Assembly (NCBI GenBank): GCA_036874045.1
Contig: JAZBRI010000003.1
Span: 7,266,501 to 7,330,500 of the forward strand
DNA length: 64,000 bases
Direction of reading: 5' to 3'
From: Cymodocea nodosa
Taxonomy: Eukaryota; Streptophyta; Magnoliopsida; Alismatales; Cymodoceaceae
Shown here: positions 3,579 to 64,000 of the stretch, in pieces
How positions within the stretch are numbered: position 1 is the first letter of the stretch
Layout: each line of letters starts with the position of its first letter
Translations under genes and position numbers: made by a program
The notes under the pieces: generated by a model
What the model saw: only the letters and a program-made list of their open reading frames with translations
What the model was told of the DNA's origin: nothing
Database searches by the model: none

Positions 3579-4198
3579 TTGTTGAGTATTTTTGTTTTGA
3601 TGATGTGTGCTGAATGAAAATAATCATATTTGCTCAATTACTATTGCTTGTGAAAAGAAATTAAAATCATCAATTAATACAGAAAAAGCTTACTGATATA
3701 AATACTTGTCTGTATTGGATCTGAAATTAATAACTAGTCGTTTCGTTGTATTAATTTCTCATTTAGCTAAACGTTAAGTTAACGTGTGTTTTTATTGAAA
3801 AGCATGATATGTTTTAATGTTATATCTTCTGTATCATGAAGAGTGCACGTTTAGACAACTCGTTAAGTTAGAGTTTTGTTTGTATAGAGGTCACGTGAGA
3901 ACTCGTTAAGTTAGAGGCTTAAAGGTTAAAATAGGTCATGTGATAACTCGTTAAGTTAGTGAGTAAAAGAAGAGACGAACTCGTTAAGTTAGTGTTATAC
4001 ACGTGGTGAAATTATAAGTTACGAATGTTGTATTGTATCACGTGAGGTGCACATGTTTAACTCGTTAAGTTAACATAACTAAACGCGTTGAGTTGCTATA
4101 TTGAACACTAAGGCAACGCGTTAGGTTAGCGTTATAAACTTAAGTTGTTATTTTTGCATATGATAAAATTCTTATTATAAAAACATTTGTTTATTACT

Positions 4199-13644: not shown

Positions 13645-14879
13645 ATAGTATCCGAAGAGTAAAACAGTAGAAATACCATCGAACAGTTAGAAGGATAACT
13701 ATCTAAATTTACAAAGCCTTCGAAAAGTTAAATGATCGGATAGTTAAGAAAGATTGAATGATCAAAGAGTTAAGGAATTAACTATTCAAAAGCTAAAGGA
13801 CTTTTCGGTAAGTTAGAAAATCTAACTATCCGAAACTTAAGTCATTCAATTACCTATGTGCAGAAATCCAAACAAAAGCTTAAAAGAAGAATCGGAAAGT
13901 TACTATAGCTAACTATCCAAAATCTTGAAGAGTTTCAGTGAGTTACAAGTATAACCATCTAGAACTTAAGTTAGTCTATTATGCACGTGCTGAATTAGAT
14001 AAAGCAGTCAGAAACTTAACAAAGGATTTCGGAGGGTTACTGTAGCTAACTATCCGACAGTTAAATAATAGTTTGGTAAGTTACAACTGCAAGTATCCGA
14101 TTGAATGACAGCTCATTGTACAACCTGAAATCCTACATGGCAGAAAGACTTAAGTGATTTTTCGGTGAGTTAAAGATGTTCTTCAGTGAGTTACACATAT
14201 AACCATCTGAAAATCGAAAGGAATTGGAAGGTTGCTTACTGAACATCAGATAGAACAGTAACTTACTATTTTTAGGATTGCTACATATCCAGTACAGTAG
14301 AAAACATCTGTTGGAAGTAAATATGTTCGTTATACTTCTTGGTATATATATGAAAAGTAAAGAGAAGATCAAATTAACGAACATATCATACTATGAGCTA
14401 CACACAAAAATTCCAGATACACTCTCAAGGCAACAACATCCAAGAATACTCTTCAAGAGTCATTGCAATAGAAAAGCTCCCTGTGCATAAACTCTAATAG
14501 AAAGTTCAAGTTGTTGGTTCATGAGTTTCAACCTAAAAACTCATTGTTGGTTGAGAGCTTCAACTTGAAAGCTCAAAGAAAGGTTGGTTATTGAGCTTAT
14601 ACCTGAAAGCTCTAAGTGTTGGTTCTTGCTTCAACCTAAAAGCAAGTTTTGTAAGTACTTGTTTACTTAGTGGAGCCCAAGTGTATCTTGGGGGTGGACT
14701 AGCTAAGTTGGTGAACCACCTAAAATTTTGCCTTGTGTTCTCTTTCTTTCTTCTATTTAGCTTTGAGTTAATTTATTTCATCTCCTCACTTTTAAAATTA
14801 GTCAATTCTAAATTAAAAGAAGTAAAATTTACACACTTCACCATTCACCCCTCCTCTGGTGAGCTTATCGATCCTAACA
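13645..14879 (+). repeat. Sirevirus LTR, family D, right part (interrupted by El-1)
   Basis: The right part of an LTR that ends ACCCCTCCTCTGGTGAGC...CCTAACA at 14879. Its left part should lie beyond the left end of El-1, outside the window. U3 is packed with CGGTAAGTTA...TAACTATCCGA palindromes (13660-14260). Downstream is a tandem hairpin block at 14505-14655. It is inserted in the F-box gene fragment of the Athila element that starts at 14880. I cannot tell whether D is a solo LTR or the end of a full element. Confidence 0.7.
14505..14655 (+). repeat. Tandem hairpin repeat in LTR D
   Basis: About four units near 38 bp, each with GTTGGTT and a stem of the form GAGCTTCAACTTGAAAGCTC. Each unit can fold on itself. 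It lies in the likely R/U5 part of the LTR. Confidence 0.65.
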
Positions 14880-15076
14880 ATTTCAAATATAGATAGTGAA
14901 AGACCTGAACAAATGGAAGTGGGAAGATGAGAACATTGAATTATATGTGGAAATAGAAACACCTACATCATCATGGTCAAGAAAATGATCCTTATCTACA
15001 TTTCAATTCATTAATGGTAATACTCTCATATTTAGTATTGATAACATATTGCAAGTTTATAGATTAAAAAGATAAG
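14880..15076 (+). pseudogene. F-box accessory gene fragment (3' end) in Athila element
   Basis: It matches the last 60-odd codons of the intact F-box ORF at 60867-61907. Shared motifs include NKWKWEDENIE (NEWKWEEEYIE in the intact copy), VEIETPT, FINGNTLIF and NILQVYRL. The left border is exactly the CA end of the family D LTR. The fragment shows that the F-box gene is a regular part of this Athila family rather than a one-off insertion. It is broken. Confidence 0.8.
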
Positions 15077-16057
15077 CAAACCACATTAAAGTAGAATTAA
15101 CTACAAGGAGAATAATGCCTAAAGGTTTTGCTTAGACTGACACGTTTATTCCATTTGTCACTACTTTTCAGTCATGTTCTTAAATTGTGATTTTATAGTT
15201 TTTAGTGTGTTTTCTATTTTTATTTATATATAAAGAAAAAAAAGAGAAAGGAAAAATTTTAGTTTACATTTTATTTATCTTACAAGAAAAAAATAAAAAT
15301 ATCAATTCAGTTTGTTGGTATCTATTTTGAGAAACCAACTAACTTGCTTGTAAGCCACCAAAGGCATAGTAGTTTGGGTTCTATATAATGCACATATCTA
15401 ACAAAATATGTTTTATAGTTATTTGTTATTTTGTTATATGCTTTACTTTTAATTGTGAATGAAAAGTTTGTCAGAATCAAAAGTTGGAATATATTAATGG
15501 AGATACAAACAAACAAGGTATGTCGATTAATTACTTATCTTGAATTTATATTCATGTGCAGTTTGTGGAGTTATTTAGTAACTTAATGAACTAAGTTTGT
15601 TGATTTAGGTGCTAAGCTAACAAAATAGTTTATCATGCTTGCTATCATATACTATATTTTCTATAAATCTTTTACATTGAGGACAATGTAAAATGTAGGT
15701 ACACGAGAGAGGTAATTAAATTAAAATCAAAGTAATCTTTTTAATTGTATGAATTAGGATTGTTCTACAAATTTCTGTAGAATCTGAAAGTTCACTGTAA
15801 CTATTTGAAAATTATTTGAAACCTTCTAATAGTTGAAATTGTAAAAAAAAAAATTTAGCAACTATAACAGTCCAAAAATTATATTTAGGATCTTACATAA
15901 GATACTATAATACTTTACTATTAATACAAATTTGAGATATCTTATCTTATGTTTTTACTAAATTTTATGAGTTTAATAATTTTACAATTTTAAAAGGAAA
16001 TCAGAATGCTTAACTAAAACTCAGAAATTCATTTGAAATTCTAAAAAGTTGAATTGC
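15077..16057 (+). other. 3' region of Athila element G0
   Basis: No gene beyond a short conserved tail (15114-15182) that matches the small ORF at 61933-62001. Further blocks match the G2 3' region: TTTGTTGGTATCTATTTTGA, GCCACCAAAGGCATAG, and the hairpin at 15671. Confidence 0.7.
15671..15692 (+). other. CATTG-AGGA-CAATG hairpin (Athila 3' region)
   Basis: TTTACATTG and CAATGTAAA form a 9-bp perfect inverted repeat around AGGA. The same hairpin is at 62410-62431 in G2, with one arm change. Similar ACATTG-GGGA-CAATGT elements are familiar upstream of the Athila polypurine tract. Its role is unknown; an RNA signal is possible. Confidence 0.75.
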
Positions 16058-19000
16058 ACTTTAGAATGAAAAAGTGCATAATATTAATGGTTAATGAATG
16101 GTTAATTACATAATATTTAGCTTATCATATGAGAATTAAGTCATTATATCATAATTATACTATTACATGCCTTAAATACAGAATATGCATAATTTCAAGG
16201 AATTAGCATTAATTAAATATCATTTTTGAAAGATTGAAAGCATAGTACGTGTGGTTTTATAAAAGTTTATGAAAGTTCATAGAGTTACTAAGGTAAGTTT
16301 ACGAACCTTTGTAATGTTATTAATGTAAGTTTATAGACCCTTGTAAAATTATTAAGGTAAGTTTACGGAACTTCGTAAAGTTAAGAATTATTTCACATGT
16401 TTACTTTTGAATGATTAAGAATTACTTCTTTTGCATATTAAATGTTAAATGTTATAAAAATATTTATTTTATTAAACTATAGAGCTAAACGAGTTTGTTG
16501 AGTTAAGCTTAACTCAATGAGGTAAGTCCATTGAGTTACAGTTAAGTCAACAAAGTAAGTCCGTTGAGTTACACTAACTCAACAAACCAATTATTTTCTA
16601 CTATTCAACTATGAGCAATTACAAAAACAAGAAATTTGAAGGAAAACCATGATTGCACGTATCACGTAGGATTTAAATCATGGAATTAAGAAGAAATCAC
16701 CATCGTTGATACAAATGAAGGAAATCCAACCAGTCATTTAGGCGGAAGTAGTTATTACTAAAAGAAATATAAAAAGAAAAGAGAAAAAACGAAGAAAGTG
16801 TAGAGAACCGCACTAACTACAGCAAGTATCAGTCGTTCCTTGAAGTTCCACCAAAACCACACTATCAATCACCAACTATCGAAGGTCTGTGAGGATACTT
16901 TTCGGATGTCAGGTTGATTCTAAGCCAAACACGGTGGCTGACAACTACTATGAGAAGTGATCATGTTGCAAGAAGGGAAACAATTTTCACCAAGCACCGA
17001 ATCATCTCTTAAACTTCTAGCCTTGGTTTCAGGTTGATGTCATAATACTAAAGAGGAGATCAACTTACAAAGTCTCAAGTAATGATTCTATAAGGAGAGA
17101 GGCACATGATAGTAAGTGATTAAGTTTTCAATGGTGTAATCGCGTCGCATGTAATGACAGAAGTTTTTACTATCAATAGAGAATTTTACATTTCACCTTT
17201 TGTTCATCTTCAGGAACATATTAAAACAAAAACAACCAAAAACTCATTATCTATTTTTATATTTATCAAATCAATGTTGTATCGTTTGTTTTGTATTATT
17301 AGTAATGTTAGTATTGTCAATATTGTTCAATGTTTTATGTTTATTTCATTCTAGAAAATCGTCTTACTGATTATTGAAACCAGTTCATATGCAATTCTGA
17401 AATCCTAATTAATATGGTTACTATTTGAAATATCTAAATGTTAGTGTTTATTAATGATAAATACCGTATAAACTAACATTAAAAGCTTAATTGATATTGT
17501 TTACATTCGATGGAACTGCCTAATGGATGGCTGAATTCCTTTGTGAATAGCAAATGTAATTGGAAGTTACTAGTGAGACTCGTTGTTAGGAATTTTGTTT
17601 TGATGATGAATACTTTATTAAAGTTTATAAATAAGTCTAAACAATATTTTCTAAGTATAATAGTCATGTAATTAAATGTTTCAAAAAGTTTCATTTAGAA
17701 TTTCAGATAGTTAACTTTTGGATAGTTAGATTTTCGAATAGTTAAAGTTTTCAAACAGTTAGATTTTCAGATAGTTAAACTTTTGGATAGTTAACGTTTC
17801 GATTTAGTCGAAAAGTTATGTTAAAAACCCGTATAGTTAAGTTATCTACATGTGTGTTTTTAATGTTTTAAGTTTTCACGTGTTTTCCATGTGCGTTTGA
17901 TAATGAAAATCGAAGAGTTAGATAACTATTCAAGTTTTTATACGCATGAATAGATAACTATTCAAGTTTTATAAAATGACTAACGAATAGTTAAGTTTTC
18001 TTTGTTCAGTCACATGTTTTGCAAGTGCAAGAACTCAAAGAGTTATAGATAAGTGTTCGAGTTTTTACAAGACTTAAAGGATAAGTGTTTGACTAAAACG
18101 AAGACTTAGAAGATATTCTACAAATCTCCAGGACGATAAAGTTTCAGTGCATCTACGAGTAGAAATCGTGGAAATTCAAAATGATAGTGGAGAAAGTGGA
18201 AATTCAAAATAGAAAGTGGACATAGTGGAAATTCAAAAAGATAGCGGAAATCGTGGATAATTTGAAATTGAAATTAGTACGTGGATTATGGATTAAGTGA
18301 ATGAACATGCTGAACGTGAAGTCATAGTTCAACTAATAAAAATAGAGAGTACGAGTTGCATTACGACCATCCTAATCCCCAATCACAAATTGAAAAACCA
18401 AGTCTAAATATTCAATCCAAATCTCAAATATCAAGTTTGAATATTCAACTACATATCAAATCTAGAAAAATTCTCCAATATTGGAAGAAGTTTGGAATTT
18501 CAAGCAATTTCAGAAAAAGGAGTTGCAAACGCAAGAAGTTTGGAAATTCGACAACTGAAGAAGAAGAGATACAGAAGCTGAGCAAAAACAAGGAAAAGAA
18601 GCTATGTGCATAAAGATCAGGTTTTATACAATTCAAAATTAGTTTAGAATAAGGACTTTATTTTTCTATTTGAATTGTATATCGGACTTTATCATATCAA
18701 AACCGACAAGAAGGGAATTGAGCTGAAAAGAAATTATAAATTCTTTCTTTAAAGTTTATAAAGAATAGAATTTTATTTACGAGTGTTTTGTACTATTATT
18801 TTATCCACTGGTGATATTAATTACTAAAGACACAATTCACCCCTCCTCTTGTGATACAACAATCCTACACTTATGGAGTTAACTTAAGTCCATGAGGATA
18901 GTCCATTGAGTTAACTATAACTCAACGAACTTAGTTCGTTGAGTTAGTAGTAAATCAATGGAGTGCGTAATTCAACACAAAAAAAAACCTCTAGTTGTAA

Positions 19001-47959: not shown

Positions 47960-49790
47960 GTCCTTCCTTGGAGCTTCCTCAATCCAAAAATGTTGTAGAG
48001 AAGCTCTAGTGTTATCTATACATCAGCTTCCTCCACGTTGGAAATTAATTGTCCTTCTTCTTCTCTTAAATTAGCATAAAAACAAGACACTAGATTTTCA
48101 TATATTGCATGCCCTTTCTGCTGAGAAATAAATTGTAGTAGACCTAGGAACTCAAATAATTCCTTAATTTCTTACATTCCGTCCCAATTTACTGGTCTGC
48201 TGTATATGATATCATAACCCCTATTCTCTTGGTATTTGCTATAAGCTTCCTGACTTCAAAAGTGTATTTCATTCAGAACTGTTGCTTTAGTCGGGTTAGA
48301 AATGTGACTTTGTTGTTCTAGAGGGGTTTGTTCTTGATCTTCCTCTTCCATAGGTTGAACTTGAATGTGCTGAAAATGTTCTGTAGATTCCTGAACATTT
48401 GCTTTTGCTTTTGTTTGTGGTGGTGAGCCGACAAAACTCTCCACTCTATCTTGAAGTGTTTCATTAAATTCAGTCGAATCTGCAAAGTCATTTTTGTCCA
48501 TGTAGCTTTATTCCACTTCTTGTTCATTATCTGTTCTTTCTTCTTTCTCTTGACTACCAATATGCATTGTCACTGTTCTTTTTGATTCTTTGGTAGATTG
48601 GGATGGAGTCACATGTAATTCAATTTCTACCCTATTTTCTACTTCTTCTTGTACAGGCTATAGACTAATTTTAGTTTGATTTTCTTCTTTTCTTTGCTCT
48701 TGAATTCCAGCCTGATTTTCTTCTTTTCTTTGCTCTTGCTGCTGCTGCTCTTGCTCCTCCTCAGAATCGAATAGTAGGTTCACCAAAATTGGCTCCACAA
48801 GCCTTATTGATGTTGGTACTTCAGATTTAATCTCCTTTTGACATTCAGGCACTATCTCTTTTCCTTTCCTTCGTTTGATTAATTGTGTCTGGTCTTCCTC
48901 TTCTACTTCTGATATTAAATCCATAAACAATAGCTCTGCATGCCTTTGAGCCACAGGTATTGGCTCTTCTTGTTTAATTTTTTCAATATTTGTTGGTCTC
49001 GAAGGACCAGCTTCAGCTTCTCCTCTTGCAGTGAATCTGATAGTGGTTCTTTGATGCTATTCAACTTTAATTTTGTATTGGGCTTTCAATTTTTCTACAG
49101 CCCTCTTTTTGCAAAGTGCATCAAATACTAAGTGTGCTTTAGCTACTACCACATCTTCTAGTTCTCCTTGGTTTTTCCCAACTTGAACCAGTCCTTAGAA
49201 TTCTCTTAATTCCTCTTCAGTTGAAGGCCCCAACATTGTTGCTCGTGCCAACGGCCTGAATGGTGGAACTGAAGGTCCTGGCTGCTATTCCTTAGGAACA
49301 GGTCTTTTAGTAGTCGGCTCCTCTTGTTCTTCTTCTACTTGTTGCTGCCGCCTCATTTCACCCCTTGCACGACCAGCAATGCACATTTTGAACCATAATC
49401 TGGCCTTGTGTTGGATTAGCTTTAGGGCTACTTTGTTGTTTGGCCTGATTTTTCTTTCTTTACTAACAACAATTTCTGTTGCTACTTTGATTCTTGTTTC
49501 CATTATCTAGGGTATTTGTATACCCAAATCTATTAAAACTCTTCTTAAGTTGAAAAGTTCGGATTCTACCTTTTGTAGCTCTCTTTCTCTTATTGTATTC
49601 TAAATTTTTTGTCACGTGTGCCATTCCTCTAACTCTTTCAGAAATTCTAATATGTCAACAGCATCTTCCCAAAACTCAGGCGTCATCTTTCTCATCGTAG
49701 AATTACACAATGATACAGAATCGCTCTAATCTTTTTGTTCTAAGTTCTAACTAATCTACCAGATAACATACCCAAAACCCTAGGTTTTAA
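47960..49790 (-). pseudogene. Post-pol accessory gene region in Athila G1, shared with Sireviruses
   Basis: Read on the minus strand after the integrase. It begins with a basic, charged region (KERKIRPNNKVALKLIQHKA), then long Glu/Gln-rich sequence (SEEEQEQQQQEQRKEENQ), then at about 48300-47960 a domain with IIYSRPVNWDGM, ELFEFLGLL and LVSCFYANLREEEGQLISN. This is the same domain as in the Copia accessory genes at 2147-2812 and 11120-11770. It is broken in several places. Function unknown. Confidence 0.6.
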
Positions 49791-50293
49791 AATAAACTCT
49801 AATTTTAGGCGAGTAATCGGGTCATTTACTGAACCAACTCTCGCTCTCTCATCCGTGGAATTATAGATAACTCCACGAACTAAGTCTGTAGACTTAACTA
49901 CAATACTCCGTTGAGTTATAGTTAACTCAACGAAGTAAGCTTGTTGACTGACTCAAGACTCAACAGAGTAAGTTCGTTAAGTTAAGCGTAACTCAACGGA
50001 CCTCCCGTATAGATAGATATAATAAAAAATACTTAAGATAATAGTTTTTTTTTTCTTCGGTTTTTACTAGTTTAACCGATAATATGTTTCGGTCAGACCG
50101 ACTTTTTTTTCGATTGAACCGATATTATGTTTCGGTAAAACCAATTTTTTTTTTACTAAAAATTAATATAGATTTTTTATGTTCCGATTATACCGATGGA
50201 TCTAGTCGATTAAACTGCAACGATTTTTTTATATTTTATAAATTTATAATTTTTTTTAATAAAAATGAAAATAAAATAAAAACTAATTTCTTA
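49791..50293 (-). other. Post-integrase spacer of G1 with palindromes
   Basis: No gene. It contains short repeats of the type TTCGGTTNNACCGA (50050-50220) and GTTGAGTTATAGTTAACTCAACGAAG-like palindromes (49855-50000). It matches the G2 spacer at 58490-58990. Confidence 0.7.
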
Positions 50294-52993
50294 CTAAGTA
50301 AAGCTTGAGTAGTCCTCTACTCTTACTTCTTCTATAATTTCAAATGAGCTTTTTGGTATTTTTAGAATAGGTCTAAGTCTTTGTTCATTTACTTTAAAGA
50401 TATTCTGATTTATAGGATTTTCAATCTCAATAGCTCTCCATAAGGATAAATATTTCGAACTATGTAAAGTCCTACCCATCTAGATCTTAATTTTCCTAGA
50501 TGGTTATGGAGTCTAGCCATGTAAAGATATACTTCTTGTCCTATTTCAAAGCTTTTTGGAATAATTTTCCTATCATGCTAGGTGGCTGATGCATTGCATA
50601 ATCCAAATGGCATTCTCTTAAAAGTATAAGTTCCATTAAGACAAGTGAAAGTTGTTTTCTCTTGATCCTCTAATGCTACTGGAATTTAATTATAAACTGA
50701 ATACCCGTCTAGGAAACAAAAATATTCTTGCCCTGCTAATCTTTCCAACATTTGATCTATAAAAGGTAAGGGAAAATGATCTTTCCTAGCCACAACATTC
50801 AACTTTCTATAGTCTATACATACTCTCTAGCCTGATTGAATTCTAGTAGGTATCAAGTTTTTACTTTCATTCCTAATAATTGTTAATCCTGATTTCTTGG
50901 GAACTACATGGATTGGGCTAACCCACGAGCTATCAAAAATCGGATAAATTATGTCATTATCTAACCACTTTACTATTTCTTTCCTGACTACTTCTTTAAG
51001 GTTTGGATTTAATCTCCTCTTAGGAATTCTAACAAGTTTAGCATTCTCTTCTAAATATATGTGGTGACAGTATAAAGTTGAATTTAATCCTTTTATATCA
51101 GTCATAGTCCATCCTATTGCTTCTTTATAACTTTTCACTACATCTTTTAATTTAGCTATTTGATCCTCTTTTAAATCTGAAGCAATAATGATTGGATAGG
51201 TTCGTTTCTCTTCTAGAAATATATAAGTTAATTCGGGAGGTAAATGTTTTAATTCTAAATACTATCCATTAGAAGCTAGAGCTCCTAATTGAACATCATT
51301 ATTTTCTAAATTAATTTCTTCCAGATCTCTTTCTATATTTATGCTTTCACTTTCCTCTAAAGTTTCAGAATTGATTTGCCTATTTAATTCTTCTTGAATT
51401 ACATCATCTAACATATCTCCTTCATCTTCTAAAAAGTCTATGGTATGTAAGGACATTTCTAACTCCTTAAACCTTTCTAGTTTAAAAATATTTAATTGAG
51501 TATTCTCATTACCATATGCTAACTTCATTACTCCAGTTTTACAATTTATAATAGCCCTTGATGTTGCTAAAAATGGCCTTCCCAAAATTAAAGATGTATC
51601 ACTATTTTTATGCTTAATTTGTTGGGAATCCAAAATTATAATATCAATAGGATATATAAAGTTTTTGATTTTAATTAAGACATCCTCTAAGGTATCTTAT
51701 ACTTTTATCAGCTAATTGAATAACCGTACTAGTAGGAGTTAAGCCTTCTAATCCTAAGGATGCAAATATATCACTTAACATAACATTTATACCTGCACCT
51801 AAGTCTATTAAGGTTCTTTCTAGAATGGTATTTCCTATGGTGCATGATATAACAGGGATTCCAATATCAGATAACTTTTTAGGAATTTATGGCAGAAATA
51901 GGGAACTACTTTGCTTAACTAAAAAGACCTTTCTAAGAACTTTTCGCTCTCTTTTCTTAGCACAAGGTGGCATTTTCTACAATAGATTTAACAAAGGAAT
52001 GTTAACTTGCACTTTTTCAAAAATTTCTCTAATTTTTTCTTGTTTTTCAGGTATTGTTTGTTATAATCTTTCAGGATATGGTGCTAAAGATTATGATTTA
52101 AAAGATTTTTTTTCTTTCGTTTGATTTGTTTGATCATTTTTAGCCTCATTAGCAGATTCAGATTGTTCTTCAGTGATTTCTAGATTTTCAGTTATTACAT
52201 TTTCATTATCATTTTGATTTTTACTCTTATCCACCATCATATTATTTTCATTTTGAGTTCTTGATGGTATATTAGTTCTAGATCTTAATGTTACACATAC
52301 ACCTTCCAGATTTTCGTTACTCTCATGATGTTTTTGTATATCATTTTCGTGATTATGATCTTCAATTATTTTTAGTTTTAAAGTGCATTCTTTAAATTCT
52401 CTTGTATTAGTATTTTCTTTTGGCTGTGTATTTTGCAAATTATGCAGATCTATAACATTATAATTTTCATTGTCCTATTGCATAACTTGTATTTTCATTG
52501 TATATTCGTCCAATGCTTTTAGTTTTCTTTCTAGATCATCTAATCTCATTGCATTCAATTTTTGATCAATTTTCATTATGGTTTTTTCAGTTTCGTAAAT
52601 TATATCCATTTTAGGTTCTGAATATGCTTCCTTATAGTTTAATTGGTTGATTTCTTGTTGCTGACACATAAAGTATTCTAATTTGTCTAGGTTTTGCTCT
52701 ATACTACGCTCTAGTCTGTCATACCTATCTCAAACTTTAGTGTCTCTCAACATCTTACACATTCTATACTGACCATCAATTGGGTAAACTATAAGATTCT
52801 CATACTCGACTTTATTATATTGAGGATAATTCATTTGTTGTTCATGGGATCTAGCCATTTGCAAATGTCTCAGTTTCAAACTGTTAGAAATGTCGTGTCC
52901 TTCAGAATTGCAGAATTCACATATGCTAATTACAGGTTTCAGAAATCTTTGAGCATAAGCATATGCCATATTCTCAATTACAAAAGAAAACAC
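50294..52993 (-). pseudogene. Athila zinc-knuckle/linker and pol of G1, shortened
   Basis: Read on the minus strand, an ATG at about 52973 lies only some 70 nt after the primer-binding site and opens MAYAYAQRFLKPVISICEFC, a zinc-knuckle-like start (CEFCNSEGHD). Then come a helical linker, a TLRS motif (where Athila gag meets protease), protease (LGRPFLATSRAIINCKTG), reverse transcriptase start ([20 protein letters not shown]) and the integrase C-end ([19 protein letters not shown]). Notably no capsid domain lies between the primer-binding site and the zinc knuckle. Many breaks. Confidence 0.75.
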
Positions 52994-53045
52994 ACAACAC
53001 TCTAGCTATTAAAACGAAACAACTCTAATAGTTGCTTATATGAAT

Positions 53046-53063
53046 TCCCCAGCAATGGCGCTA
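53046..53063 (-). promoter_or_regulatory. Primer-binding site of G1 (tRNA-Asp type)
   Basis: On the minus strand, TAGCGCCATTGCTGGGGA. The usual Athila/Tat site is TGGCGCCGTTGCCGGGGA; the three differences are all G-to-A or C-to-T. It fixes the end of the LTR at 53071. Confidence 0.85.
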
Positions 53064-53070
53064 GAAAACT

Positions 53071-54074
53071 TATTTGGATCTCTAGCACGACACTAGAAAA
53101 CTTGATTGGTTACCTAGCAACGTGTCAGAAAAACTTGGATTTGTTAACTTTTGTTTTTACTTAGTTAATTTATCTTTATGCCTATATCACTAAGTTCCTT
53201 TTTAGAAGTAAACAAATAAGCTTTCACACAAATTAAATATTAATTCCAATTTGTATTTTAACTGCAAGTGCATAGTGTCTATTGTATTAGTGTGCAAGTA
53301 CAAGTCGATCCCACAAGGAATTGCTTAAGAATTGCGAACTGTTCTATTTTTAACAATCAAATTTATATATTCAATAAGCTCTCCGTTGAGTTAACTATAA
53401 CTTAACGGACTAAGTTCGTTGAGTTATGGCTAACTCAACGGACTAACCTCATGGACTTAAGTTAACTCCACAAGCCTGTCTTTCCTATTTAATACTACTA
53501 TTTACAGAGGAATTCAGCCAACCATTGGGCGATTTCACAGATTGTAAATAACATCAATTAAGCTCTTTAATGTTAGTAAACATTGGATTTATCATTAGGC
53601 AATACTAACATTCAGATAATTCAAACAGTAACCATTAAAATCTTTAAGTCTATTGAACAAACCAATTCCAATAAACTGTAAAACTAAAACAAACATAAAA
53701 CAATCACAACACTGACAAATATAACATTAATCATGATACAAAACAAACAATACAATACCCAAATACAAACACATATAAGTTATTTTTGGTATTTTTGTTT
53801 TGATATGAGCATGAAAATAGGCGAAATATGAAATGTAAAGTAATCTCAGTCGATAGTAAATACTTCTGTCACTACATGCGACGCGATTACACCACTGAAA
53901 ATTAAACCACTTACAATTCTGTCTCCTCTCCGTATAGAATCGCGAGTTCAAAATTGCAAGATGATCTTCTCTTCAGCATACAGGCATCAACCCGAAGCCA
54001 AGGCTAGAAGCTTTACGATCTCCTAAGATATGAGTCGGCACTTGGTGAAAATGGCTTCCCTTCCCATGACACGA
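53071..54074 (-). repeat. 5' LTR of G1, part (family C)
   Basis: The reverse complement of the right half of LTR C1 (compare 45720-46680). It carries the GGGATCGACTTGTACTTGCA block and GTTGAGTTA palindromes (53375-53475). Its outer half is displaced by the insertion of G2 at 54075. Confidence 0.85.
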
Positions 54075-54600
54075 TGTTTAGAATGAAAAAGTGCATATTA
54101 TTAACGGTTAAATGATGGTTAATTGCATAATATTTAGCTTATCATATGAGAATTAAGCCATTATGTTATAATTCCACTGTTATATGCTTTAATTGAAGAA
54201 TCTGCTTAATTTTGGAGAATTAATGTTAATTTAGTACATTTATGAACTATCGGTAAATTGCAAGCTGTGAAATTCTTAAGTATCCAAAAATGCATCTAAG
54301 CATCAGATAGTTATACTTGTAACTCTCCGAAATGTTATTTTATGTTTAAATTGCTGCTGACACGTGTCAAGATCTGGTAGATTTACTTAAGTTATAACTC
54401 GTTAAGCTAGCATAACTGTACGCATTGAGTTGCTATATTGAACACTAAGGCAACGCGTTAGGCTAGCGTTATAAACTTAAGTTGTTATTTTTGCACGTGT
54501 TTTATAGTTACATCAACGAAGGAAGTCCGTTGAGTTATCTGTAACTCCACGGACTATATATTTTCTAATATGCCACTGTAGCGGTTGCAGGAACAGACTG
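54075..54600 (+). repeat. 5' LTR of G2 (C2), shortened, with a Copia-like patch
   Basis: It starts TGTTTAGAATGAAAAAG like C1 and the 3' LTR. Between 54396 and 54495 it carries about 100 bp that match the Sirevirus family A LTR at 4059-4159 with about six differences (TGAACACTAAGGCAACGCGT is shared). LTR C1 has unrelated Gypsy U3 sequence at that place. It is shorter than a complete family C LTR and passes straight into the linker region. Confidence 0.85.
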
Positions 54601-54604
54601 GAAT

Positions 54605-55700
54605 ACTTTGTGTGTCAACAACAAGAAGTCAACCAATTAAACTATAAGGAGGCATATTCAGAACCTAAACAGGATATAATTTACAAAACTGAAAAAGCCA
54701 TAAAGAAAATTGATCAAAAATTGAATACAATGAAATTAGATGATCTGGAAACAAAATTAAAAGCATTAGACAAAAATTCAATGAAAATACAAGTTTTACA
54801 ACAGGACAATGAAAATTATAATGTTATAAACCTGCACAACTTGTAAAATATACAGCAAATAGAAAACACTAATGTAAGAGAATTTAAAGAATGCACTTTA
54901 AAACTAAAAACAATTGAAGATCATAATCACGAAAATGATATACAAAAACATCATGAAAGTAATGAAAATCTGGAAGATGTATGTGTAACACTAAGATCTG
55001 GAGCTGATATACCACCAAGAACTCAAAATGAAAATGATATGAAGGCGGACAAGAGTAAAAATCAAAATGATAATGAAAATGTAATAGCTGAAAATCTAGA
55101 AATCACTGAAGAGCAATTTGAATCTGCAATTGAAGTTAAAAATGATCAAACAAATCAACTGAAATAAAAAGAGTCTTTGAAATCAAAATCTTTAGCACCT
55201 TATCCTGAAAGATTACAACAAACAATTCTTGAAAAACAAGAAAAAATCAGAGAAATTTTCTAAAAAGTACAAGTTAACATTCCTTTGTTAGATCTATTGC
55301 AGAATATGCCACCTTGTGCTAAATTTCTAAAGGATTGGTGTACTAAGAAAAGAGAGCGAAAAGTTCTTAGAAATGTCTTTTTAGTTGAGCAAAGTAGTTC
55401 CCTATTTCTGCCATAAATTCCTAAAAAGTTATCTGATATTGGCAAATCAATTCTGAAACTTTAGAAGAAAGTGAAAGCATAAATATAGAAGGAGATCAGG
55501 AAGAAATTAATTTAAAAAATGAGGATGTTCAATTAGGAGCTCTAGCTTCTGATGGGCAGCATTTAGAATTAAAACATTTAACTCCTGAATTAACCTATAT
55601 ATTTCTGGAAGATAAACGGACCTGTCCAATCCTTATTGCTTCAGATTTGAAAGAGGATCAAATAGCTAAATTAAAAGATGTAGTAAAAAGTTATAAATAA
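54605..55700 (+). pseudogene. Athila gag linker and protease area of G2
   Basis: Helical, Lys/Glu/Asn-rich linker (MCQQQEVNQLNYKEAYSEPK), then TLRSGADIPPRTQNEN, the motif that precedes protease in Athila, then PYPERLQQTILEKQ, VQVNIPLLDLLQNMPPCAKF and LKDWCTKKRERK, all familiar Athila gag-pro junction motifs. The protease itself is incomplete. Broken in several places. Confidence 0.75.
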
Positions 55701-55715
55701 GCAATAGGATGGACT

Positions 55716-58463
55716 ATGACTGATATAAAATGGTTAAGTTCAACTTTATGCTGTCACCACATATATTTAGAAGAGAATGCTAAACCTGTTAGAATTCCTA
55801 AGAGGAGATTAAATCCAAACCTTAAAGAAGTAGTCAGGAAGGAAATAGTTAAATGGTTAGATAATGATATAATATATCCGATTTCTGATACCTCGTGGGT
55901 TAGTCCAATCCATGTAGTTCTCAAGAAATCAGGATTAACAGTTATTAGGAATGAAAGTCAAGACTTGATACCTACTAGAATTCAATCAGGCTGGAGAGTA
56001 TGTATAGACTTTAGAAAGCTGAATGCTTTTACTAGGAAAGATCATTTTCCCTTACCTTTTATAGATCAAATGCTGGAAAGATTAGCAGGGCAAAAATATT
56101 TTTGTTTCCTAGATGGGTATTCAGGGTATAATCAAATTCTAGTATCATTAGAGGATCAAGAGAAAACAACTTTCACCTGTCCTAATGGAACTTATGCTTT
56201 TAAAAGAATGTCAGTCGGATTATGCAATGCACTAGCTACCTTTCAAAGGTGTGTGCAGGGCATATTTACTGGAATGACTGATGAATTTTTAGAAATATTT
56301 ATGGATGATTTTACTATATATGGCAACTCATATGAAGTGTGTTTAAGCAATTTAGACAAAATATTAAAATGCTGTGTGGAAAAAAATCTGGTTTTAAATT
56401 GGAAAAAATCTCACTTCATGGTTAAACAAGGAATAGTCTTAGGGCATGTTGTTTCTAAAAAAGGGTTGGAAGTAGATAAAGCTAAAATAGAAGTAATTTC
56501 TAATCTACCAGAACCTAAATCAGTAAAAGATATTAGATCATTTCTAGGACATGCTGGTTTTTATAGAAGATTTATTAAAGACTTTAGCAAGATAGCTAGA
56601 CATTTAACTAATCTATTAAAAGATGTTCCATTTAACTTTGATAAAAATTGCAAGGAAGCATTTTTAAGACTTAAGACTAGCTTAATTTCAACTCCTATAA
56701 TTCAAGCACCTAATTGGAACCATCCATTTAAATTAATGTGCGATGCTTCTGATTTTTCTATAGGAGCAGTGTTAGGACAGAAGATAGAAAAATCTCCTAG
56801 AGTGATTCATTATGCAAGCAAAACCTTAAATGATGCTCAAGTTAATTACACAACTACTGAAAAAGAATTATTACCTATTGTGTTTGCTTTAGAAAAGTTT
56901 AGATCATATTTGATTGGAGCTAAAGTAATAGTATATACGGATCATTCAGCTCTAAAACATCTAATAAAGAAAAAAGAAACTAAACCTAGATTGATCCGAT
57001 GGATATTATTATTGTAAGAATTCAATCTAGAAATTAAAGATAAAAAAGGTTGTGAGAATGTAGTAGTAGATCATTTATCAAGATTACAAATAGAAAAATC
57101 AAATATTGAAATTAAGGATAATTTTCCTGATGAACAATTAATGACCATCAACACAATGCCTTGGTATGCAGACATACTTAATTACTTAGTTACTGGTTTA
57201 ACACCTAAGGATTGGAATAGACAGGATAAGAAATTGTTTTTCTCAAGAGTAAAATATTACTATTGGGAAGACCTTTACTTATTTAAGAAATATCCTGATT
57301 TGGTTTTAAGGAGGTGTGTTCTAAAAACTGAATATTCGAGCATATTGTCTTTCTGTCATGACCAAGCTTGTGGAGGACATTTTGGTTCAGGGAAAACTGT
57401 TGCAAAAATTCTGTAATGTGGGTTTTATTGGCCAACACTATTCAAAGATGCTCATAAATATCGCTTAAGTTGTTTAAGATGTCAACAAATAGGACGAATA
57501 TCAAAGAGGAATATGATGCCTCTTAATCCTATTGTTGAGGTTGAAATCTTTGATGTGTGGGGAATAGATTTTATGGATCCATTTCCTATGTCTAATCAAT
57601 TTAATTACATATTGTTGGGGGTAGATTATGTATCTAAATGGATAGAAGTTATTCCTACAAAAACTAATGATAACAAAGTGGTAATACAATTTATAAGAAC
57701 AAATATATTTGCCAGATTTGGAATACCTAAAGCTATTATCAGTGATAGAGGAACTCATTTTTGTAATAGAAGTTTTGAAGCCTTAATGAAGAAATATGGA
57801 GTAAACCATAAAATTGCAACATCATATCATCCGCAAACAAGTGGACAAGTAGAAAGTGCAAACAAACAAATTAAATTAATCTTGGAAAAAGTAGTAAATC
57901 CTACTAGAACAGATTGGGCTAATAGATTGATAGATGCACTTTGGGCTTATAGAACTGCTTATAAAATGAGCTTAGGTATGTCACCTTTTAGGCTAGTATA
58001 TGGAAAAAGTTGTCATTTACTTGCTGAAATAGAACATAAAGCTTATTGGGCATTAAAAACTCTGAACTCTAATTTAAATCAAGCTGCTGAAAATAGGAAA
58101 ATGCAACTAATTGAATTAGAAGAATTTAGAAATGAAGCTTATTCAAAGACTATAAGAGAAAAAGAGAAAATTAAATTCTGGCATGATAGAAAAATTATTC
58201 CTAAAAGCTTTGAAATAGTACAAGAAGTATATCTTTATATGACTAGACTCCATAACCATCTAGGAAAATTAAGATCTAGATGGGTAGGACCTTACATAGT
58301 TCGAAATGTTTATCCTTATGGAGCTATTGAAATTGAAAATCCTAAAAATCAGAATATATTTAAAGTAAATGGACAAAGACTTAAACCTATTCTGAAAACA
58401 CCAAAAAGCTCCTTTGGAATTATAGAAGAAGTCAGAGTAGAGGACTACTTGAGTTTTACTTAG
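55716..58463 (+). pseudogene. Athila pol of G2: reverse transcriptase, RNase H, integrase
   Basis: Reverse transcriptase is about 55800-56500 ([38 protein letters not shown]). RNase H is about 56700-57050 ([26 protein letters not shown]). Integrase is 57141-58463 with an HHCC finger ([29 protein letters not shown]) and catalytic-core motifs [32 protein letters not shown] and [16 protein letters not shown]. These are diagnostic of the Athila lineage. Most of it is open; only a few breaks. Confidence 0.9.
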
Positions 58464-59085
58464 TAAGAAATCAGTTTTTATGTTTATCTATATATATAAA
58501 ATAAAATAAAAACATTAAAAATATATATAAAACATAAAAATAGTTACGGTTCAACCGACTAGGTATGACCGGAAAATTAAAAAATATTTAGGTCTAACCG
58601 AAGCATAGCATCGGTATGACTGGAACATAAAAAAAAAATTTTGGTTTTACCGAAACATAGTATCGGTTCAACCGAAAGAAAAGTAAAAAAATAAAAAATA
58701 CTTAGGTCTGACCGAAGAGTATCGGTTAAACCGGAAAAAAATAAATAAATAAATAAAACAGAATAGAAAACTTACGAGAGTAAAACTTAGATGTTGCCAA
58801 GTGTTAACTCAATGAAGTAAGTCAGTTGAGTTAACCGTAACTCCACGAGGTCAGTAATATAATATAAGGTCACTCCGTTGAGTTATCTGTAACTCAACAA
58901 AGTTAGTCCATGGAGTTAGCAACAATAACCGACTGTGTTCTGTTGAGTAATCTGTAACTCAACGAGGTTAGTTCGTGGATTAAGCAGAACAGTTATTCTT
59001 TTAACCACAAACGAAACTTCGTCGGTTTAGCGGTTACCAAAATTTGAAATTAGTAGTGGTACACATACCTATTAAAACAGGAACC
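58464..59085 (+). other. Post-integrase spacer of G2 with palindromes
   Basis: No gene. It has repeated GGTNNGACCGAA-type words (58540-58740), then GTTGAGTTATCTGTAACTCA-type palindromes (58800-58985). It matches the spacer of G1 at 49791-50293. After about 59000 the two elements part: G1 goes to the Copia-shared accessory gene, G2 to gag and the F-box gene. Confidence 0.7.
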
Positions 59086-60660
59086 ACGATGCACATTGCA
59101 AGACACGTTCTTGCAACGAGATTTATTCACTTTATGGATGCGCAGTATATATATGAAATAGAATGTTATTTACAAGTTACCAGCACTTTTAAGAGAAAGG
59201 AGAAAGCGTTGGAGGAACTGGAAGGAGAAGTAATTGATTCAACCTTCATCTGACAACAAATATTTATAGAATGGAAAACTTCAGACTGGTATGTAATTAA
59301 TTTTCTGCTATTTATTTATGAGCACATGGACTCGTTCTCTAAGTACTAAACGATTAGTAAGAACACCTACCTAGGAATTTTCGTTGCAGAGGAGTACTGA
59401 AAAACTTTTTGAACTAAACTTTAACGAAATTCTTTGGGGTGTAGCTAACCTTTCTTTAAAAGAGAACGTAGAGATGACTGCTTTAGTAGAAAAACCATTA
59501 GGAGAGATTCTGTATCCTGAATTAATTGATGAACCTTCATGTATTCGATTACCAAACTTTGAGGGAGATAGGTTTGAACTGAAATCTAATTATATTAGTT
59601 AATTGCCACATTTTCATGGATTAGAAAGAGAGGATGCCTATTATTTCCTTAGAGAATTTAACGAAGTTTGTCAAATGATGAGAATGTCGAACATGAGTAT
59701 AGATGCTATTAAACTTAGATATATCCCTTTTGCTTTAAAAGATACAGCTAAGAGATGGTTATATACTCTGTCGCCTGATTCAATGTCTACATAGACTAAA
59801 TTTTGCTCTATTTTTCTAGAAAAATACTATCCAACACATCAAACGATTAAAAAGAAGAAAGAAATATTAATGTCTAGCCAAAAACAGGGTGAATCATTTT
59901 GGAAATATTTTGAAAGATTTAAAGATTTACTGACTCAATGTCCACATCATGCAATGAGTAAAGCACAATTAATAGGCATAATTTATGAAGGCATAGATGT
60001 TTCAACGAAATCTTTATTAGAATCTATTTGTCAAAATGGATTTTTAAAATTATGTAGTGAAGAAGCATGGGCATATTTAGAAAATTTTGCAAAAAGAACT
60101 ACATAGTGGGAAAATTCAACTGAAGCTATTGCAGATAAAAGATTATTGCCAAGAGGAATGCATGAAATAAATTCCAATACTATGCTTGAGGTGAAATTAA
60201 ATGAATTAACAAAGAAAATAGAAGAGTTATCATTAAATCAAAAGCTAGTAGAAAAGAATACAAACATAAATGACTTAGATATTATTTATGCTAGAAACTA
60301 GAGAGATAACTTGGGAAATTTTTATAATCCTAATTGGAGAAATCACCCGAATTTATCTTGAAGAAACAATAATTTCCAAGGAGGAGAAAATATAAATGAG
60401 AAGAACATAAGTTATGAAGTATTAATTGAACAAGGAGCTAGAATAAAGAAATTAGAAAAGATAATCCAACAAGTAAACAATCGTCTAGAATTTATATTTG
60501 GAAATGCTGTAAATCAAAATCAGAATAGAAATATATCACTTAGACAGAAGGAACCAATGGAAGTTAGACCTACTGGAGGATTGCCAATACAAGCTATACT
60601 TAATCCTGCCAATAGAACGGTTAATGAAATTGATACCTCTTCTAGGAGGGCAACTGAATG
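59086..60660 (+). pseudogene. Athila capsid-type gag, located downstream of integrase
   Basis: A short leader reading frame (from about 59091, HIARHVLATRFIHFMDAQYI) and a possible small intron (GTATGT at 59289 to TTGCAG ending 59389) precede the gag core at 59390-60110. Core motifs are FHGLEREDAYYFLREFNEVC, DTAKRWLYTLSPDS, FLEKYYP and FKDLLTQCPHH, a clear Retrotrans_gag/Athila capsid domain. The tail has NPNWRNHPNLS, as in Athila gag, but no zinc knuckle. Its place after pol is abnormal. Broken in a few places. Confidence 0.75.
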
Positions 60661-60686
60661 AAGCAGCATATCTGAAACAACTATCT

Positions 60687-60848
60687 GTATGTATATATGT
60701 TTTTATTTTTATTTTAAGTTAATAGTATCGTAGAATTAATTTTTAACTCAACGAGCTTAGTCCGTTGAGTTATGCCTTAACTCCACGAGGGTGTGCAGTA
60801 GTTATGTTAATTTTTTGTCTTTGGTAAATTTTTGTTTTTATTTTACAG
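60687..60848 (+). other. Candidate leader intron before the F-box ORF
   Basis: GTATGTATAT at 60687 fits a plant splice donor and ATTTTACAG ending at 60848 an acceptor, 18 nt before the F-box ATG. The interval contains a palindromic block (60740-60795, GTCCGTTGAGTTATGCC). Splicing is known in the related Tat/Ogre elements. Unproven; needs RNA reads. Confidence 0.4.
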
Positions 60849-60866
60849 AATCGACAAATAGAATTA

Positions 60867-61907
60867 ATGCAATTACCGTTGGATGCACAAAGGGAAATAC
60901 TAAGTAACTTTTCAGCTAAAGATCTGTGCAAGCTGTGTTGTGTATCAAAGGAAATTAAAGACTGTATTGAAGAAAAATATTTTCAGGGACTACAAGTTGC
61001 AAAAATGACTAAGATTAGAGATGGATTCGTATGGAGGTCATTTAATCGTAGTTCAAATACCTATGAATATCTGGCTATAGAAGAAACTACTGGAATTCCA
61101 CCCAATACATTAGAAGGAATGAGTCATATTATGAGGATAGATGAAGGATTAATCATATATAAGACGAGACTAAGGTATGCAAGTTTATCATTACCTGAGA
61201 TTTTGATAAGAAATCCTATAACAAGAGAAGAATATAATATAGGAAGACCTAATATATTTGAAGCACCAACTGAAAATTGTGGGTCAGCTTTAATATTTTC
61301 TAATAAAAATTCTGCAATTCCTGAAAAATTATATTATTGGAGACCTACAAGAAATTGGGGTGAAGATTTACGCTTAAGTGTGTATAATTTTCTGAACAGA
61401 TCTTGGAATGAAAACATTATAATATATCTAGGACATAAATCATTAATTAACCAAACACATGCCATACTTGATGGTTATATATATTTAGTCACGGAGATAT
61501 CAATAGCATATAGATCTGATTTATACATAGTGAGCATAGATAGTTATGATGATTATATAGAAATTTTACCTGTACCCAGTGAAATAGCTAAACCACCATC
61601 TGAAAAATTTAATGAAATTCAAATAGGAATGTGGTATAATGAAGAAGATGATCCTACTTTATGTCTGATAAGATGGTGGGATGAACTGATGAAATTTCAA
61701 ATATGGATTATGGAAGACATGAATGAATGGAAGTGGGAAGAGGAGTATATTGAAATAGATGTAGAAATAGAAACTGCTACATTACCTTGGAACCAAAAAG
61801 GATCCCTTTTTGCATTACATATCATTAATGGTAATATACTCGTATTTGGAATTTATAATATATTGCATGTTTACAAATTAATTAAAAAGGAACAAGAACT
61901 ACATTAA
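60867..61907 (+). CDS. F-box protein with F-box-associated-like domain, carried by Athila element G2
   Basis: A single open frame of 346 residues between gag and the 3' LTR. Residues 3-39 form an F-box (LPLDAQREILSNFSAKDL, then CCVSKEIKDCIEEKYF), the part that binds SKP1 in SCF ubiquitin ligases. Residues of about 90-340 resemble an F-box-associated (FBA/kelch-like) substrate-binding region: ILIRNPITREEYN, LYYWRPTRNWGEDLRLSVYN, HAILDGYIYLVTE, YIEILPVPSEIAKPP. No membrane segment or signal peptide. The AT-rich codon use matches the element, not the GC-rich host kinase, so the capture is not recent or came from an AT-rich gene. A second copy of the 3' end is at 14880-15076. The role is unknown; an element-encoded SCF adaptor that changes host protein turnover is one possibility. 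It looks whole, and is intact in a broken element. Confidence 0.8.
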   Translation: MQLPLDAQREILSNFSAKDLCKLCCVSKEIKDCIEEKYFQGLQVAKMTKIRDGFVWRSFNRSSNTYEYLAIEETTGIPPNTLEGMSHIMRIDEGLIIYKTRLRYASLSLPEILIRNPITREEYNIGRPNIFEAPTENCGSALIFSNKNSAIPEKLYYWRPTRNWGEDLRLSVYNFLNRSWNENIIIYLGHKSLINQTHAILDGYIYLVTEISIAYRSDLYIVSIDSYDDYIEILPVPSEIAKPPSEKFNEIQIGMWYNEEDDPTLCLIRWWDELMKFQIWIMEDMNEWKWEEEYIEIDVEIETATLPWNQKGSLFALHIINGNILVFGIYNILHVYKLIKKEQELH

Positions 61908-62001: not shown

Positions 62002-63748
62002 GCTGTGATTTTGTATGTTTAATGTTGTGTATTCTGCATTTATTTTTTAGAAAAAAAAAAGAAAGAATTTTGAAGTTTTTCATGTTCATTTTATAAACAA
62101 ACAAAACAAAATATCAATCTAGTTTGTTGGTATCTGTTCTGGGAAACCAACTAGCTTGCTTATGAGCCACCAAAGGCATAGGAGCCTAGGTTCCACACAA
62201 TACATTGATTTATTAATATCTGTTAAATGTTATTTTGTTTTATATTCTGTGTTTATCTAGGAATGAAAAGTTTTTTAGAATCAAAAATCGAAATATGTAG
62301 AAAGAGATACAAATGGAACAAGGTATGTAACCAATTACTTATCTTGAATTTTAAATCAAACAAAACTTTATTCATGCCTGCTACAATTACTGTACTTATT
62401 ATCAAATCTTTTACATTGAGGACAATGCAAAATGTAGGTATGGGGGGGAGGTAATTAAAGTAACAACCATGTAAGTTTGTTAATTAAAGGAATTAAAATG
62501 GTACTGCAAAGTTTTGAGGAAATTGAAAATTTTTATGAACTTGCTGTAATTATCCGATAATTGAGACTGTAAAATTTTTATAAACTACTTGAATGTTATA
62601 TTTAGAAGGCTATAGAAGATGCTATAGAATTTATTATTTATGTAAATCTAGATATAGTATCTTATGATTTTTCTGAATTTCATGAGTTTAACAGTTTCAC
62701 GATTTTAAAATGAAATCAGAATATTTAATGCTTAATCAGAAAATTATCTGAAGTCCTGAAGGAGCTGAGATGTGAATTGTAGATTAAATGAAACACATAT
62801 GATGAAAGATACATTTACTTTGACTAATTGAACTTGTAAAATGATTTATGTGTAGATTTTATTAAACTACAGATAAAGTATGAGCTTATTGTTATGGATT
62901 CATATTTTTAGTAAATGATAGAAGTAGGATTATATGAGATTGGTGTTTTACTACATCTGTATTAATGAAATACGTGCATATACAGTATGTGATTAATGCT
63001 TTGTTTTGTGTGTGCATTTATTTTTAGAAAGAAAAAAAAAAACCTTGAGAGTTTATTGACTTGTTTGATCACTAGCCTTTTGTACTTGAGCAGATAGGTA
63101 TGTAAGGATTGTTGACCTGAAAAAGGACTCTGAAAATCTAGCAACCTAAGATCTTGATCAGATCTGGGATTGTTGATTGAAAGCTCGTTACATGGGTACA
63201 TTAGAAAGCTCTTGTATGATTCAAGCTTGTCAAATTAACTTTTAAAGTACAAAAAAAAAAAGGAAAAGAAAAAAAATATACTATTCTGAAAAGATACAAG
63301 TGTTTTGTGAAATACAGATATCTTATGAATCGAGTATATTTTCTGTTATCTAGAATTGCTGAAATATGAATCTGGAATTGACTTTTGAAGTTGTTTAATG
63401 GAAATACAATTCTTTATTCTACTTGTCTTAATCAGATTGAATTGGATTGTACTTTGATTCGTATGTTGTTGAAATTTCTTTTAGAAAATTTATTGGAAAA
63501 TTCAGGATTATAGATGATGAAAAGAAGAACAAACGATAATATAATTAACACTTATATGAAGATGATATACTTTGTATGTAATTTACATATATTCTAAATA
63601 TCTTTGCAGGTTGATTACTGAAACATACAGATTATATGTTTATGCCGAACAGAAGAAAAAAAACAAAAGGGGAAGAATTAATTCTAGTACTTTTTGAAAG
63701 ACCAATTAATTAGATCTTAGTTTGCTAAGGGACTAGCAAAATTTAGGT
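62002..63748 (+). other. 3' region of Athila element G2
   Basis: No gene supported. It holds TTTGTTGGTATCTGTTCTGG and GCCACCAAAGGCATAGGAGC (also in G0 at 15310-15370), the hairpin at 62410-62431, a GTAGGTATGGGGGGGAGG purine tract at about 62435-62452, and AT-rich filler. A 75-codon frame at 62227-62454 has no recognisable motif. Confidence 0.6.
62410..62431 (+). other. CATTG-AGGA-CAATG hairpin (Athila 3' region)
   Basis: TTTACATTG AGGA CAATGCAAA: one arm change from the perfect copy in G0 at 15671. A purine tract follows within about 10 bases. Confidence 0.75.
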
Positions 63749-63758
63749 ATGGGGGAAG
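63749..63758 (+). promoter_or_regulatory. Polypurine tract of G2
   Basis: ATGGGGGAAG directly before TGTTTAGAATG. It primes plus-strand synthesis and marks the LTR border at 63759. Confidence 0.8.
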
Positions 63759-64000
63759 TGTTTAGAATGAAAAAGTGCATATTATTAATGGTTAAATGAT
63801 GGTTAATTGCATAATATTTAGCTTATCATATGAGAATTAAGTCATTATGTTATAATTGCACTGTTATATGCTTTAATTGAAGAATCTGCTTAATTTTGGG
63901 AAATTAATGTTAATTTAGTACATTTATGAACTATCGGTAAATTACAGGCTATGAAATTCTTAAGTATCCGAAAATACATCTAAGCATTGGATAGTTATAC
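63759..64000 (+). repeat. 3' LTR of G2, start only
   Basis: It matches the first 240 bp of the 5' LTR at 54075, with about a dozen differences counted by eye, mostly transitions. It continues past the window edge. Confidence 0.9.

Follow-up and report, generated by a model that had tools for sequence, protein, structure and literature searches.

Reading of the open reading frames (ORFs) in the stretch of Cymodocea nodosa DNA analyzed here (64,000 nucleotides; hereafter, the window) confirmed a frame of 346 codons on the forward strand at 60867 to 61907; given the base composition of the window, about 1e-10 frames of this length would be expected by chance in 64 kb. A Pfam scan of the ORF placed an F-box (PF00646) at residues 2 to 38 (E = 9.1e-9; 35.3 bits against a cutoff of 20.5), in agreement with the preliminary description of this DNA, which had been made from the sequence alone and had reported an N-terminal F-box and an FBA/kelch-like C-terminal region. 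The C terminus resembles the plant F-box-associated domain weakly: TIGR01640 (F_box_assoc_1) matched residues 166 to 307 at E = 4.9e-6 and 26 bits, under its curated cutoff of 37.9, and Pfam FBA_3 matched at E = 7.4. The domain scan listed no kelch match for the ORF. The gene cannot be called intact, as it had been. ORFs of 373 to 376 codons, with the same start and a common C-terminal stretch, were found in 7 of 47 copies sampled from the genome (see below), and the window copy departs from this frame near residue 339, with about 30 residues lost to a frameshift; it is open, not intact. A protein database search with the ORF gave 1,212 candidates, none at E ≤ 1. That database is rich in plant integrases, so this speaks against a close, word-sharing relative there and hardly addresses distant ones. 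A PDB sequence search gave nothing useful, no relative was found in the viral contigs searched, and a structure predicted without an alignment (mean pLDDT, 39) was set aside.

The ORF lies 3' of RT-RNase H, integrase, and gag frames and 5' of a polypurine tract and an LTR (Table 1), and the placement originally given to it, between integrase/gag and the 3' LTR, is thus correct. The element that contains it spans 54075 to window-equivalent 65610 (C3:7332110); its LTRs are 95.4% identical over 518 nt, and a target duplication matching at 4 of 5 bases (CACGA/CGCGA) surrounds the whole unit, which is inserted in the LTR of a related element on the opposite strand. This minus-strand element has its primer binding site (PBS) at ~53061 to 53042; compared with it, the window copy has lost the PBS, the NC, and a large part of the protease region through a deletion near 55440. 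Behind the integrase of the minus-strand element is another ORF, Q/E rich (48256 to 49760, minus strand), with weak Pfam matches only and in which no F-box was found; it may be other cargo or a separate insertion. The second copy of the F-box 3' end that had been noticed in the window was located at 14878 to 15066 (tblastn, 1.1e-16) and is followed by about 1 kb of common sequence up to an LTR start; this older copy is identical to the window copy at 77.8% of coding and 74.3% of noncoding positions.

Table 1. Features of the F-box element and related copies in the window
Feature	Position	Strand	Basis
Older copy: 3' end of F-box gene and sequence beyond it, LTR start at 16060	14878..16059	+	tblastn
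Related opposite element: LTR end, 5' ORF from NC zinc knuckle, pol	50101..54070	-	Comparison
5' LTR, 3' part lost; begins TGTTTAGAATG; flank CACGA	54075..54592	+	LTR comparison
pol region with in-frame stops	54593..58463	+	Pfam
RT-RNase H	55701-57014	+	Pfam RVT_1, RT_RNaseH
Integrase	57018-58460	+	Pfam Integrase_H2C2, rve
TATA-like motif, candidate internal promoter	59146..59154	+	Counted by eye across copies
Start exon, coding part (MENFRL); donor GT at 59289	59271..59288	+	Consensus rank, copies
Intron containing capsid gene	59289..60848	+	Gone from six genomic copies
Capsid (CA) gene of gag, ATG at 59474, 5 in-frame stops	59390..60658	+	Retrotrans_gag, 1.4e-11
Far acceptor AG, before F-box exon	60847..60848	+	Rank 8 of 3,875 AG
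F-box/F-box-associated ORF, C-terminally short by frameshift	60867..61907	+	ORF and domain searches
GAGGACAATG motif and first purine tract	62413..62452	+	Read; also in second copy, ~15670-15712
Polypurine tract adjoining 3' LTR	63745..63758	+	Read in sequence
3' LTR start; runs past window to window-equivalent 65610	63759..64000	+	Sequence comparison

Several other features were observed in the window. Short TTGAGTTA...TAACTCAA units are repeated in LTRs as well as in the post-pol spacer and the capsid/F-box intron (58780 to 59000, 60728 to 60810, 16494 to 16587, 46290 to 46410, 53380 to 53475, and 49852 to 50001), and a 101-bp unit of the F-box element's LTR (54395 to 54495) has a 94% match at 4058 to 4158, within a repeat that belongs to a different family, exceeding the similarity of the flanks. 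The ORF at 2147 to 2812 matches, below threshold, the putative plant transposon protein family PF20167, with a similar stretch near 11512 to 11722; a GC-rich, LRR receptor-like ORF (34132 to 36444) lies within AT-rich repeats, and a hAT transposase fragment (PF14372, 3.3e-11) is present at 22355 to 23056 on the minus strand. No tRNA gene was found in the 64-kb window.

We searched the 28 contigs (374.6 Mb) of the host genome for F-box matches (best 150 scored of 4,220 candidates) and for the window protein (best 117 scored of 6,654 candidates), the top matches in both cases favoring open copies. The genome contains at least 117 copies of the gene: all 117 scored cover at least 338 of the 346 residues at ≥90% identity, with 48 free of internal stops by our own count and 69 containing them. 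We then took 48 loci at F-box matches (the 8 best, 20 chosen for their long open frames, and a further 20 distributed over the upper list), and the element's F-box gene was present at 47. A capsid gene lies upstream of it at 39 of these 47 and a common downstream region follows it, likewise, at 39; among the 20 loci of 10 kb length, 17 have an LTR downstream and 12 an integrase upstream. The F-box gene belongs to a high-copy retrotransposon family, as had been proposed from the window. An ORF confined to a single locus, a dN/dS of about 1 (see below), and a lone host gene were each looked for, and none was upheld. Taken by itself, the window, with a single ORF adjoining decayed elements, would be compatible with an ordinary host F-box gene next to retrotransposon debris, but this reading is refuted by the gene recurring in the same element surroundings at 47 of the 48 loci and at no fewer than 117 sites in the genome, by the target-site duplication that encloses the whole unit, and by the sole exception and only other F-box gene fetched, that of L005, being unrelated (E = 0.14). 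No donor host gene was found; the window-protein search gave element copies alone among the matches listed. A second F-box at L026 (15 to 2426), about 50% identical and with its own capsid gene upstream, shows that older F-box subfamilies exist.

Across the family, the order is LTR-NC-PR-RT-RH-INT-capsid-F-box-LTR and not the usual LTR-retrotransposon order, in which the gag capsid comes before pol. One stretch at L022 contains an LTR, NC, RT-RNase H, part of integrase, capsid, F-box, and the 3' LTR, whereas L019 (LTR-NC-INT-CA-F-box) and L027 (RT-RH-INT-CA-F-box) cover most of it. The capsid gene is behind integrase at L009, L013, L017, L019, L022, L023, L024, and L027, as well as in the window copy; the 5' ORF starts at the NC zinc knuckle, right after the PBS, at L019, L020, L022, and L025 and in the minus-strand element, and no zinc knuckle was found in the window capsid gene. 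In relatives found in other plants (P0124; P0125 of Tasmannia lanceolata), a single ORF encodes both capsid and protease in the usual way; in this family, therefore, the capsid was relocated behind integrase and NC was left in front. Stop-free capsid genes were seen in none of 19 copies with a long single match and in none of 35 scored in window coordinates, a count disturbed by indels. We also considered whether 59380 might be the remnant PBS of an independent gag element and rejected this, as there is no LTR-like sequence before it and the order INT-CA-F-box is found repeatedly.

The family is one of Ty3/gypsy LTR retrotransposons in high copy number and, judging from its domains, most likely belongs to the Athila clade. 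The GAGGACAATG motif with its purine tract we take to be Athila-like. A PBS of other than the tRNA-Met type would be expected in that clade; the sequence that follows the LTR in copies, TGGCGCCGTTGCCGGGGA, may match tRNA-Asp. The Pfam scan listed no chromodomain in the integrase frame and one RNase H region only, with none between RH and integrase; a second RNase H (aRH) marks the Tat clade, according to PMC6317226. The Athila assignment of the preliminary description therefore fits in that the element is a nonchromovirus with a single RNase H, but not in its extra gene: PF03078 (ATHILA ORF-1) was in none of the frames scanned, the F-box and capsid genes lying downstream of pol instead. In the data given by PMC6317226, ATHILA ORF-1 is downstream of pol in only 16% of Athila-clade members.

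Candidate splice sites were chosen from a consensus before the genome copies were examined. The donor at 59289 ranks 9 of 3,175 GT on the plus strand of the window, and its GT is kept in all 16 unspliced copies that have the site; the ATG of the start exon is kept in 17 of 22. In the alignment, 35 of 44 copies have the far acceptor AG (35 of 39 once five spliced copies are excluded). A nearer acceptor before the capsid gene, at 59389, has consensus rank 34, its AG being present in 19 and missing in 6 of 25 copies. The start-exon ATG is in frame with both acceptors, 59389 (capsid) and 60848 (F-box). The far-splice product would begin MENFRL-NRQIEL before the F-box in the window copy and MESFRL in three spliced copies; the near-splice reading would add 28 codons (59390 to 59473) ahead of the capsid ATG. 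All 29 copies are open across this stretch in the CA frame, the other two frames being closed, and its pN/pS is 0.556 in frame against 0.552 and 0.965 when shifted; of the two, only the open frame argues for coding.

Exactly 59289 to 60848 is missing at 6 of the 47 loci (L012, L020, L025, L026, L029, and L043), four from the 20 long-frame picks and two from the 20 spread-out loci. In a tree, these copies sit on at least four branches among capsid-bearing copies, although some nodes are weakly supported; spliced L012 is placed beside unspliced L022 with a support of 0.97. At L020, both LTRs are present and AGTGG flanks the element on either side, an exact 5-bp target duplication; L025 is flanked by GTCAT/ATCAT. 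The frame from the start-exon ATG is open through the junction in five of the six. The shared GT-AG junction, the separate branches, and the target duplication of L020 together indicate that the six loci are retrotransposed spliced RNA. Internal deletions are common in the family, as in the pol deletion common to L016 and L021, whose ends are not GT-AG, ruling out splicing as the origin of these pol-less copies; it is nevertheless very unlikely that the six-locus gap is a deletion, or the capsid block a later insertion, since the junction is identical in all six, starts with GT and ends with AG, and recurs on separate branches among capsid-keeping copies. A GT-AG intron that contains the capsid gene and ends just before the F-box is absent from the preliminary reading, as is the displacement of the capsid gene behind integrase. 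No copy of the near-acceptor splice was seen among the 47 loci. As the spliced copies retain pol upstream, their source RNA carried pol; they do not demonstrate F-box translation, which would most likely need an internal transcription start. The TATA-like motif before the start exon is found in 19 of 20 copies with the region and is deleted in L022.

The ORF had been described at first as having stayed open while much of the element decayed. We rejected the openness of the lone window ORF as evidence of selection, since the chance of no stop in one copy is 0.085 to 0.19, normal for its age. A comparison limited to the two copies in the window gave a dN/dS of 0.46, which is too weak (bootstrap, 0.21 to 1.07) and was reached in 1.7 to 12.5% of neutral simulations, depending on the transition rate. 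The comparison across F-box copies that had been suggested as a check is more informative: in 561 pairs of 34 copies, 20 of which had been picked for long open frames, dN/dS is well below 1 and goes with rising dS from 0.62 through 0.50 and 0.38 to 0.36 and 0.36. With distance, gag (19 copies) gives 0.55, 0.38, 0.29, and 0.27 and RT gives 0.53, 0.35, 0.41, and 0.35; integrase shows no steady fall (0.49, 0.36, and 0.48). The drop to about 0.36 in distant pairs, like that of gag and RT, shows that the F-box gene was kept by selection. Stops are mostly at CAG, TGG, and CAA codons, as expected of methylated-C decay, and no stop-free F-box was seen in the 10 copies scored among the 20 spread-out loci (L029 to L048). 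The fall of dN/dS with distance is the pattern of genes that were constrained during family spread and free to decay after insertion. Stops in 69 of the 117 scored copies, and the single F-box capture by an LTR element reported from Thlaspi arvense (PMC8764390), would also suit a passive passenger, taken up a single time from a host F-box gene and since carried from copy to copy without use; this is improbable, however, given a distant-pair dN/dS that matches gag and RT and lies below the medians of a neutral simulation on the F-box tail (0.75 to 1.05), and given a codon composition that is the element's own (GC3 of 0.205, 0.203, and 0.201 for F-box, gag, and pol, against 0.71 for the LRR gene in the window).

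The family can be compared with several described elements. Athila, Calypso, Cyclops, and Bagy-2 are described with an env-like ORF and Diaspora without one, and the Bagy-2 env is reported to be spliced (PMC7264820, PMC6317226, and PMC1142308). With this clade, the present family has in common a nonchromovirus Ty3/gypsy type, one RNase H, and an extra sense ORF between pol and the 3' LTR; it differs in that the extra ORF is an F-box gene and not env-like, and in that its capsid gene is behind integrase and inside an intron. A family of Phalaenopsis Gypsy elements with an AlkB m6A demethylase is likewise described as having fixed a cellular domain, with a proposed action on host control (PMC9289625), although the domain differs; the extra domains that section 12 of that survey names (15 over the filter in 121 angiosperm genomes) do not include F-box. 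Ogre, of the Tat clade, likewise has additional ORFs, and its coding region contains an intron that is partially spliced (PMC6317226), but that intron lies between GAG-PROT and RT, and the second RNase H of Tat was not found here. In the Thlaspi arvense case, an F-box gene is also within an LTR element, but the capture is of one gene, whereas here the gene is kept across an element family. Repeated sequences of sunflower are listed as including F-box genes, which the authors credit to shared domains. In the open-licence literature, we found single F-box captures by LTR elements and no element family with an F-box gene.

Our model, which we consider likely as a whole, is that of a rearranged Ty3/gypsy family with its own F-box gene and a start exon common to capsid and F-box. 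Gene order, family-wide presence, past purifying selection, and use of the far splice are shown by the sequences themselves. In the model, both proteins would use the one short start exon: joined to the near acceptor, it would presumably give capsid, and joined to the far acceptor, with the capsid gene removed, it would give an F-box protein starting MENFRL. Transcription would begin at an internal promoter ahead of the start exon, and the F-box protein, once translated, may bind SKP1 as an SCF substrate adaptor, a role suggested by an F-box joined to a putative binding domain. For its target, a host silencing factor is our leading guess, a tentative one, because viral P0 and host FBW2 act on AGO1. 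The polerovirus P0 is described as an F-box-like protein used against AGO1 (PMC6593998), and FBW2 as a host F-box protein that targets it (PMC9035678); their likeness to the element's F-box is by analogy only, and for P0 of Brassica yellows virus, the SKP1 contact is reported to serve stability and not suppression itself. Equally open, and no less doubtful, is a role in which the F-box protein targets proteins that the element itself encodes, or the capsid that is its start-exon partner, and not host silencing; a start exon common to both would provide a common control point, whereas the usual binding of other proteins by the plant F-box-associated half weighs against it. In its fullest and similarly speculative form, our model would have alternative splicing choose between the production of particles and that of an SCF adaptor by which a host silencing factor is removed, the capsid having been moved behind integrase.

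F-box proteins are a type that marks other proteins for destruction. New here are the displacement of the capsid behind integrase and the start exon common to capsid and F-box. Extra ORFs behind pol are common in plant elements, mostly without a known domain; this one has a recognizable domain, selection across many copies, and splicing recorded in the genome. For annotators of this genome, most of the top F-box matches examined are transposon genes. Spliced retrotransposon RNA is shown to have been reverse-transcribed repeatedly, and reverse transcription of spliced RNA has been proposed for Diaspora as a route to sudden gene loss (PMC1142308). With this family, the idea of a transposon-encoded ubiquitin adaptor becomes testable, and if the proposed function is true, a plant element would carry a retrovirus-like accessory gene.
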